Assembly (NCBI GenBank): GCA_949743265.1
Contig: CATJSX010000042.1
Location: forward strand, 1-41,873
Source: an uncultured Peptococcaceae bacterium
Lineage (GTDB): Bacteria > Bacillota > Peptococcia > Peptococcales > Peptococcaceae
Direction: 5' to 3'
Length of the DNA stretch: 41,873 nt
The notes beneath the pieces are model-generated. The model was not told where the DNA came from. It worked only from the letters and a program-made list of their open reading frames with translations, and did not search any database. A program made the translations under genes and the position numbers. Shown in pieces: positions 36,848-39,498 of this stretch; positions within the stretch are counted from its first letter, which is position 1, and each line of letters starts with the position of its first letter.

Positions 36848-36877
36848 TTGACTTTTGAAAGTTAATTTTGATATAAT
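36848..36877 (+). promoter_or_regulatory. Sigma-A promoter of the MATE-kinase unit
   Basis: TTGACT (36848-36853), an 18-base spacer and a perfect TATAAT (36872-36877) lie before the leader RNA. Expected transcription start is about 36884. Confidence 0.7.
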
Positions 36878-36883
36878 ATCACC

Positions 36884-37019
36884 GAAATTTAAAAATGAAT
36901 ACAGTCATTCAACGACACATGTAGTGCTTTGCACGTAAATCTGATTACGGTATTGAAAGCTACTGCATGTGAAACGTGTTTGATTTACGCGACACATGCA
37001 AAAGCATGTGTCGTTTTTT
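36884..37019 (+). promoter_or_regulatory. Attenuator leader RNA with switching hairpins and terminator
   Basis: Four segments compete. A1 CACATGTAGTGCTTT (36916-36930) pairs with B1 AAAGCTACTGCATGTG (36956-36971) with one bulge. A2 CGACACATGC (36990-36999) pairs with B2 GCATGTGTCG (37004-37013), followed by six T: an intrinsic terminator 28 bases before the exporter start. B1 GCATGTG (36965-36971) can instead pair with A2 CACATGC (36993-36999), and A1 CGACACATG (36913-36921) with B2; either would remove the terminator. In addition CGTAAATC (36934-36941) in the first loop can pair with GATTTACG (36982-36989). It is thus a two-state attenuator; the signal could be ribosome stalling on a short upstream ORF or a ligand. 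Confidence 0.7.
36895..36924 (+). CDS. Possible leader peptide MNTVIQRHM
   Basis: A nine-codon ORF starts about 11 bases after the predicted transcription start and ends inside the A1 strand of the leader hairpin. A ribosome paused at its end would cover A1 and leave B1 free to pair with A2, blocking the terminator. This is the geometry of antibiotic-induced attenuation. No ribosome binding site precedes it, so translation is uncertain. Confidence 0.3.
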   Translation: MNTVIQRHM

Positions 37020-37047
37020 GTCTGTAAAAACAGGAGGTTATTTTTTC

Positions 37048-39024
37048 ATGGAACAAAACAATTATTTAGGCACAGAGAAAGTAGGTACATTGCTAAGGCA
37101 ATTTGCAATCCCATGCATTTTCTCACTAATTATTTCCTGCCTTTACAATATCGTTGACCAGATTTTTGTAGGCAATGGCATTGGCTATTTAGGAAATGCT
37201 GCAACGGGCGTCATTTTCCCCATTACAGTTATTGGTTGGGGTATATCATTGCTCTTTGGGGATGGTGCAGCTGCCCATCTAAGCGTTTCTTCTGGGAAAA
37301 ATGAAACACAAGATATTCATTCTGGTGTCGGCAACAGCATGTTATGCTCTTTCCTCTGTGGCGTAGTGCTCGTAGCTATTAGCTATCTTTTAGGAGATAA
37401 TCTGCTGCTTTTAATCGGCGCAACAGAGGCTAATTTGTCACTGGCGCATGACTATGGCTTCATTATCTATTTTATGATGCCAATAGCTTTAGCCCAAAAT
37501 ACCCTTGCCTCTATCATTCGAGCAGACGGAAGCCCTCGTTATGCTATGTGCGCGATGTTAGTTGGCGCAATTATCAATATCATAGGTGATCCCTTAGCAA
37601 TTTTCGTTTTAAATCTAGGCATTAAAGGGGCAGCTTACGCAACAATATTAGGTCAGTTTGTCAGTTTTATTATTTGCGTTTTGTATTTACGTAAAAGCAA
37701 AACTTTCAAAATATCTTTTAAAAGTTTCTTGCCAAATACCCTCATTTTGAAACGTATCATCACTTTGGGCGCTTCCAGTTTTCTGACACAATTGTCCATT
37801 GTGATTATTACCATCATAAACAATATCTTGCTGGTAAAATACGGCGCTGCTTCTGTTTATGGCGCTGATATTCCTTTAGCCGCCTTCGTTGTCATTATGA
37901 AATTATTTCAGATTGTCCTAAATGTTGCAATCGGTATTGCTGCCGGCGCACAGCCGATTGTAGGATATAACTACGGCGCTGGAAATTATAGTAGGGTACA
38001 ACAACTTTTAAAGCTCATCATCAAATGGACAGTTATTGTTTGCGTAATATGCACCATATTGTTTGAAACATTTCCTCTTTTATTCATTAAAATGTTTGGA
38101 GCAGATGGAGAACTATACACACAATTCGCGGTTCTTTGCTTACGAATTTATCTTTCTTTGATAATTTTTACATGCGTGCAAAAAGTTTGCGCTATTTTCT
38201 TACAATCCATAGGTCATGCTAAAACCGCCGCCCCATTATCTATTTTAAGAGATATGTTATTGATTATTTTTTCATTGATTTTACCCATTTTTGACGGCGT
38301 TACGGGTATCTTTTGGGCAGCTCCCATTGCTGATATTATCGCTATTGCCATTACATGCGTTGTCATGGTACAGCTATGGAAATCATTAGAACAAGAAAAA
38401 CAACAAATACAGCCAAAAGTAAGTTTTAAAGCCATACAAACTTCTTCTCCCGGCGCAATTATTACGATTGCTCGTGAACACGGCACAGCAGGAAAGTATA
38501 TCGGACAGTTAGTTGCAGAAAAACTAAATATTCCGTGCTACTACAAAGAAATGACTGCTATTGCAGCAAAAGAAAGCGGTCTTGCGAACGAATTTATTTC
38601 TAATATAAATTCAGATGAAAATGCCGTCATGCGTGAATTGTATCTAAGCACAAATGTCATACAACAAGCCATCATAGCACAAGACAAAGTAATAAAAATG
38701 ATTGCAGAAGCAGGCTCGTGTGTCATTATAGGACGTTCAGCAGATTATGTTCTACGTCATAATAAAAATCTGGTACGAATTTTTATCCATGCGCCTAAAA
38801 AATATCGTATAAAAAAAGTAATGGAAATGTATGGCGATACGTATGAGGAAGGTCGAAAAAATGTCGAACGTTCTGATGCGGCAAGAGCTGCTTATTATAA
38901 GAATATATCTGGCAAGAAGTGGGGCGATCCACATCAATACGACCTTTGTATTGACAGCTCTATGGGGACAGAAAAATGTGTCGACATTATTATCGAATAT
39001 GTTTCTAAAAAAATAACTAGCTGA
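37048..39024 (+). CDS. MATE exporter fused to a cytidylate-kinase-like domain
   Basis: The 658-residue protein has two parts. Residues 1 to about 450 are a complete MATE transporter with twelve helices (LLRQFAIPCIFSLIISCLYN, IVDQIFVGNGIGYLG, GAQPIVGYNYGAGNYSRVQQ). From about residue 469 to the end is a cytidylate-kinase-like (Cytidylate_kin2) domain: AIITIAREHGTAGKYIGQLV as the P-loop region, YYKEMTAIAAKESGLANEF, CVIIGRSADYVLRHNKNLVR, IFIHAPKKYRIKKVMEMYG, and the lid ARAAYYKNISGKKWGDP. MATE proteins export cationic drugs with Na+ or H+. The kinase would face the cytoplasm. The ATG at 37048 follows AGGAGG; an ORF extension to 36976 crosses the terminator. Single-gene unit under an attenuator. 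Confidence 0.88.
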   Translation: MEQNNYLGTEKVGTLLRQFAIPCIFSLIISCLYNIVDQIFVGNGIGYLGNAATGVIFPITVIGWGISLLFGDGAAAHLSVSSGKNETQDIHSGVGNSMLCSFLCGVVLVAISYLLGDNLLLLIGATEANLSLAHDYGFIIYFMMPIALAQNTLASIIRADGSPRYAMCAMLVGAIINIIGDPLAIFVLNLGIKGAAYATILGQFVSFIICVLYLRKSKTFKISFKSFLPNTLILKRIITLGASSFLTQLSIVIITIINNILLVKYGAASVYGADIPLAAFVVIMKLFQIVLNVAIGIAAGAQPIVGYNYGAGNYSRVQQLLKLIIKWTVIVCVICTILFETFPLLFIKMFGADGELYTQFAVLCLRIYLSLIIFTCVQKVCAIFLQSIGHAKTAAPLSILRDMLLIIFSLILPIFDGVTGIFWAAPIADIIAIAITCVVMVQLWKSLEQEKQQIQPKVSFKAIQTSSPGAIITIAREHGTAGKYIGQLVAEKLNIPCYYKEMTAIAAKESGLANEFISNINSDENAVMRELYLSTNVIQQAIIAQDKVIKMIAEAGSCVIIGRSADYVLRHNKNLVRIFIHAPKKYRIKKVMEMYGDTYEEGRKNVERSDAARAAYYKNISGKKWGDPHQYDLCIDSSMGTEKCVDIIIEYVSKKITS

Positions 39025-39041: not shown

Positions 39042-39101
39042 CATAATGGAGCAAACCGAAAAAATGCTTTTCAAAGCACTTTTTCGGTTTGCTCCATTAT
39101 G
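39042..39101. terminator. Long 29-bp inverted repeat terminator
   Basis: The arms 39042-39070 and 39073-39101 are complementary at 28 of 29 positions around a TC loop. It lies 17 bases after the MATE-kinase stop and ends that unit. The AT-rich region begins just beyond. Confidence 0.75.
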
Positions 39102-39498
39102 GACTATAAGAACTAGAGCATCATGACATATGTGATGACAAAAATAAATGAAAGATTACAACAACGATTGGATAAGTGTCATAATTAGACTAGTAAATGA
39201 CATAGATAGACCTTGTTTTTTATGCTGAAAATAGTTATTATAATATTAACGGTCGACCTTAACTTAAGAAATCATATTACAACAAATATAATAATTACAT
39301 TTTTATTATATTTATTATAAAAATTATCCTTAATGGAATTTATGTATTTTTCATATAACATTAAAAATCCTTAAGAAATTTTAATATGTGATTTACTTCT
39401 GAATAATGCTGTAATGAGCTCTTATGCAAACCAAAAAATAATATAGAAATAAAGAAGTGCGTATAATTAAAATAATAAGAAACAGGAGATATAATAAG
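39102..39498. other. Very AT-rich intergenic region
   Basis: I see no gene with a ribosome binding site. A 17-codon ORF at 39135 (MTKINERLQQRLDKCHN) could be a remnant but has no other support. Base composition drops sharply compared with the sequence to the left, suggesting a junction with foreign DNA. Confidence 0.35.

Follow-up and report, generated by a model that had tools for sequence, protein, structure and literature searches.

A conserved leader RNA upstream of MATE-kinase and other membrane-protein genes: probably an undescribed class of transcriptional ON riboswitch

The DNA analyzed here (the window) is a stretch of 41,873 nucleotides, read on the forward strand, of contig CATJSX010000042.1 from an uncultured Peptococcaceae bacterium (GCA_949743265.1); all features described below lie on the + strand. 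The gene at 37048..39024 encodes a 658 aa fusion of a MATE transporter and a cytidylate-kinase-like domain. Both domains named by the original prediction are confirmed by Pfam (PF01554, MatE, and PF13189, Cytidylate_kin2), and among solved structures the MATE transporter BH2163 and a putative kinase come closest. Right after the stop codon lies a long near-perfect inverted repeat (39044-39104), probably a bidirectional terminator. Upstream of the gene, a near-consensus promoter of the sigma-70 type (36848..36877; TTGACT-18 nt-TATAAT with a TG before the -10, 11 of 12 consensus matches) would place the transcript start near 36884. The 131-nt leader is predicted to be much more stably folded than its shuffled counterparts (-47.9 versus -31.5 kcal/mol, z -4.9). 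It contains an intrinsic terminator, T2 (36989..37019), which consists of 11 bp (36989-36999 with 37004-37014), a 4-nt loop and TTTTTT (U run 37014-37019); one such terminator is found where shuffles give 0.3. T2 stands directly before the ribosome binding site, as had been proposed: the last U of the run is at 37019, AGGAGG occupies 37032-37037 and the ATG lies at 37048.

The leader had originally been described as a set of repeats that can each pair with alternative partners. A repeat search recovers both copies of CGACACATG (36913 and 36990) and both copies of GCATGTG (36965 and 37004), together with four competing arms: P1 (36916-36925/36962-36971), an antiterminator (36959-36971/36993-37005), the terminator (36990-36999/37004-37013) and an outer arm (36900-36921/37005-37026). 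P1, which spans 36916..36971, can be extended by GCUU/AAGC (36926-36929/36957-36960), and the antiterminator (36959..37005) is centered on GCAUGUG/CACAUGC. The outer helix P0 (36900..37026) pairs 36900-36904 with 37022-37026; since it spans the terminator U run, it could form only in read-through RNA. The preference of P0 strands for their own partner is weak overall (57 of 99 leaders, a count in which the window's U run is misassigned), and P0-like covarying pairs occur in some relatives, for example L067 and L072.

The part of this leader that is most widely conserved is a 45 nt core at 36911..36955, the candidate aptamer. A search with the encoded protein gathered 80 loci with MATE-kinase homologues (62-87% identity), mostly from Lachnospiraceae and Oscillospiraceae, and 70 of these carry a near-invariant core in the leader, with the consensus AACGACACAYGYRG-[YGCnnnGCR]-CGUAARYCUGAUYACGGUACRG. 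The ten without it comprise three loci truncated upstream of or within the gene and seven divergent homologues. Six divergent homologues that lack the core motif (L070, L076, L077, L078, L079 and L081, from spirochaete, fusobacterial and clostridial MAGs) were inspected upstream, and most have, in the 190 bases before the gene, parts of another leader: GUCnGnC..AGAGCGUAGAAUYCYGAC, a terminator and GUUUUCAGGYAGCUUUYCUC..GAUAAAGACUCCA. This leader has no Rfam match and may be a regulatory RNA of another, unrelated kind that serves the MATE-kinase gene.

A covariance search, as the original prediction had suggested, shows that the core recurs before MATE-kinase homologues and before other membrane-protein genes as well. 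The model used, R1, describes the core only (short consensus RACGACACAnGY-[P2]-GUAARYCUGAUYACGG, with two conserved ACG trimers); it scores 69.2 bits in the window's own genome (E 1.3e-11) and was run on genome samples picked regardless of gene. R1 has hits in 7 of the 398 phylum-wide genomes, in 29 of the 391 from Clostridia (roughly 7%, the class being inferred from named relatives), in 12 of the 197 from one order and in 2 of the 46 from the window's own class. Because the motif is this rare in the window's class while the MATE-kinase of the window nests in a Lachnospiraceae clade of the protein tree (up to 87% identity), the sequences suggest that gene and leader moved together by horizontal transfer. 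A scan of viral contigs for the motif returned one chance match, in coding DNA.

Fifty matches, gathered by the RNA model or a DNA pattern in genome samples that were not gene-selected, show which genes lie behind the core. In thirty-eight the gene that follows encodes a membrane protein of ~190 aa that matches DUF2798 weakly; five precede an MFS pump whose nearest models are LmrB/EmrB, and three, including L111, precede a MATE-kinase. The DUF2798-type, MFS or MATE assignment was made by homology search in 45 of the 50 contexts, and L111 was identified separately; the other four were matched to no gene. L163 is a chance DNA match. The DUF2798-type protein gives a confident predicted model (pLDDT 89), to which nothing in the PDB is significantly similar in structure. 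In the MFS leader of L085 (1560-1700), a second large hairpin follows the first terminator and repeats the GGCACACGU...GUGUGCC theme, perhaps as a tandem copy. The core thus lies in cis before several non-homologous genes of one theme, as a riboswitch would, and the placement of three unrelated membrane-protein families under one RNA points to a shared signal and not to gene-specific attenuation.

Within the core, R1 describes a weak hairpin, hairpin A (36918..36943), followed by a conserved unpaired tail, AUUACGG (36944..36950; AUYACGG across the family). In hairpin A the 5'-strand C-A and G-Y pair with the 3'-strand U-G and R-Y (36918-36919 with 36942-36943; 36921-36922 with 36939-36940) around the P2 hairpin (36924-36927 with 36931-36934), leaving GUAA (36935-36938) as an internal loop. 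All hairpin A cells were paired in the first alignment, and 99.0% are paired over the 90 distinct sequences of the 99-member alignment, which was fitted to the R1 model and so leans towards this structure. When APC mutual information is computed with no structure assumed, the four top-ranking column pairs are all hairpin A pairs, and up to five pair types occur at a single P2 position among the 99 members. On the MATE-kinase protein tree the basal Y-R pair has switched between UA and CG at least four times, and in three of these cases well-supported branches leave no alternative; the P2 pair at the center has changed nine times. Both keep a standard pair in every row. The core is therefore a structured element supported by covariation, as expected of a riboswitch.

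The minimum-energy hairpin of the same region, CGUAA/UUACG (P3), was also considered as the conserved fold; it has 13 broken cells and no compensatory changes. Hairpin A on its own is worth -0.5 kcal/mol in the window. Covariation backs hairpin A and leaves CGUAA/UUACG unsupported, so the fold that has been conserved differs from the one of minimum energy; the low stability of hairpin A is what one would expect if a ligand were needed. Ligand binding had been raised earlier as an alternative, with an 8-bp pairing between the loop and a downstream strand (36934-36941 with 36982-36989) as the ligand-binding pseudoknot. The general idea is the better reading of the leader, and the pairing itself is present in the window, but it is retained in no leaders beyond the small clade of the window, and the widely conserved aptamer-like element is hairpin A with its AUUACGG tail, which the original prediction had missed. 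The 8-bp pairing shows G-U changes within this clade and one A-C mismatch in L003.

How the core is connected to termination can be seen from the predicted folds of 99 leaders. In 93 of them a T-rich run is preceded by a stem whose 5' side is formed by the 5' strand of the core (the window, which has a weak T-rich stretch and a separate T2, is classed as 'embedded' by artefact, and a few relatives possibly likewise), and in 88 of those 93 at least half of the hairpin A 5' nucleotides are re-paired downstream. Because the 5' arm of the terminator stem takes these nucleotides, hairpin A and the terminator are alternatives. In most members P1 itself bears the U run and is the terminator. In about thirty MATE-kinase leaders, the window included, there is a second terminator, T2, whose 5' arm copies the CACAYG of the core and is thereby a pairing partner for the P1 3' strand (predicted duplex about -9 to -18 kcal/mol); in the window, P1 sequesters the strand that could otherwise disrupt T2. 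The copied arm explains the repeats in terms of two global folds, P1 with T2 or hairpin A with the antiterminator. Some clades other than the window's have a UUUAC stretch ahead of T2.

With hairpin A enforced, the predicted probability of T2 in the window drops to 0.44 from 0.98, and many relatives, but not all, are left with almost none; in the T2 leaders L002, L066, L072, L026 and L041 equilibrium T2 is undiminished, so that a switch there would have to be kinetic. The P2 5' arm and loop, paired with their own downstream strand, do modestly better than in swapped combinations (36 of 55 arms; p 0.001, with relatedness ignored). Taken as models, the folds argue for an expression platform and a core fold that exclude each other, the arrangement sought in a riboswitch. 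The claim of a switching attenuator before the MATE-kinase gene thus holds beyond the window, in that two mutually exclusive folds are kept across about 100 leaders.

Our analysis suggests that the leader is probably a riboswitch of a class not yet described, one that acts on transcription with putative ON logic and a putative ligand. During transcription, the core (36911-36955) would fold into the weak hairpin A and the AUUACGG tail. A small molecule, probably an export substrate of the downstream protein, would stabilize this fold and leave the P1 3' strand (36959-36971) free to pair with 36993-37005, the 5' arm of T2; the antiterminator so formed would block T2, and the MATE-kinase gene would be transcribed. 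When the ligand is absent, the P1 3' strand would invade hairpin A, P1 and T2 would form and transcription would stop. Most other members would use a shorter version, in which P1 carries the U run. The sensed molecule is probably a toxic small molecule that these proteins export. As for the wider picture, we lean slightly towards a class that is widespread in gut-type Clostridia, binds a single toxic compound of low molecular weight (a metabolite, microbial product or drug) as its direct signal and turns on three or more unrelated families of membrane proteins that handle it, two of them known efflux types, including the uncharacterized DUF2798-type proteins and the MATE-kinase fusions.

The alternative that survives best is that a regulatory protein, or another RNA, binds the core and chooses between P1 with the terminator and read-through, the RNA itself sensing no small molecule. 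The invariant segments might just as well serve as a binding site for a protein, and hairpin A is intrinsically weak. Yet the element recurs in many families of Clostridia before three unrelated membrane-protein genes, and its make-up, densely invariant at the core and with a covarying stem at the periphery, is typical of aptamers; we regard this alternative as unlikely.

Far less probable is leader-peptide attenuation, which the original prediction had raised as a possibility and in which a ribosome stalled on MNTVIQRHM would cover the first CGACACATG strand and promote read-through. The nine-codon ORF MNTVIQRHM* (ATGAATACAGTCATTCAACGACACATGTAG, 36895..36924) does end within the 5' strand of P1, as had been pointed out, and the gene codes for an efflux-type pump, so that the arrangement recalls the leader-peptide attenuators of antibiotic-resistance genes, where a terminator/antiterminator choice also precedes a drug-pump gene. 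Those attenuators, however, have a conserved ORF with a ribosome-binding site, and no conserved translated short ORF with such a site is found here. An ATG-initiated ORF runs into the core in 19 of the 99 leaders and the peptides are unrelated; an SD-like start occurs in one of the 99, and the ORF of the window lacks a Shine-Dalgarno site. The ATG is absent from the closest relatives (L002, L003, L035, L055 and L066), loop indels of 1-4 nt break any reading frame, and the predicted transcript start is only about 11 nt before the ATG. The ORF is accordingly judged fortuitous, and control by a leader peptide falls away. A plain terminator or insulator with chance alternative pairings agrees with the minimum-energy fold of the window leader, which is the OFF state, but is highly improbable given that the best-conserved, covarying element lies outside that fold.

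If the riboswitch reading is true, the leader represents a new orphan class, compact in its core of about 45 nt and clear in its expression platform, which ties the MATE-kinase fusion, the LmrB/EmrB-like pump and the DUF2798-type family of unknown function to one signal. The identity of the ligand would at once point to a substrate for all three protein families; there is precedent for a ligand revealing a substrate in the guanidine riboswitches, which did so for SugE. Relevance of this signal to the gut is likely, because most named hosts are Lachnospiraceae and Oscillospiraceae, whose usual habitat is the gut.

With respect to known classes, no family matches the window RNA among the covariance models of Rfam 15 at the gathering score, and a scan of the whole window, together with the leader at a relaxed E-value, gives chance matches only, which agrees with the earlier view that this is not a named riboswitch class. 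Twenty motif loci likewise have no Rfam match, and the same scan recovered guanidine-I in seven SMR loci as a positive control. The motif was not found in the open-access main texts of the literature on MATE, MFS, cytidylate kinase or DUF2798 riboswitches, and the main text of the 26- and 50-genome motif papers mentions no multidrug, cytidylate or efflux genes. The best reading is thus an orphan class, its novelty being relative to Rfam 15 and the open-access literature.

Two described families invite comparison because they are also associated with MATE genes in Firmicutes: guanidine-IV (the GGAM-1/mepA motif), an ON switch acting through a terminator (PMC7736828), and Gd4v, for which the same has been proposed (PMC9788692). 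Membership of either is scarcely credible. In both, a loop-loop pseudoknot links two hairpins, of which the second is the terminator (PMC7736828, PMC9788692), whereas most members here have one terminator hairpin and no conserved upstream hairpin, and the T2 loops are unconserved. Guanidine-IV has no conserved ACG trimer and its commonest gene is sugE (PMC7736828); the present core conserves two such trimers, and neither the sugE nor the transaminase association of the two families is seen among the contexts here, which, where assigned, are of the DUF2798, MFS and MATE types. Architecture, consensus and genes all differ, as judged from the published descriptions of the two families.

The closest known system in its working is the HMP-PP (thiS motif) riboswitch, in which a small aptamer lies within an intrinsic terminator, the folds are mutually exclusive and the logic is ON (PMC6478431). 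In architecture the present leaders are alike, with core strands embedded in the terminator and mutually exclusive folds. The genes are different, being concerned with thiamin precursor synthesis in the one case and encoding membrane proteins in the other, and in some members here, including the window, there is a further, separate terminator whose 5' arm is a copy. By analogy, the likeness would be one of mechanism and not of membership.
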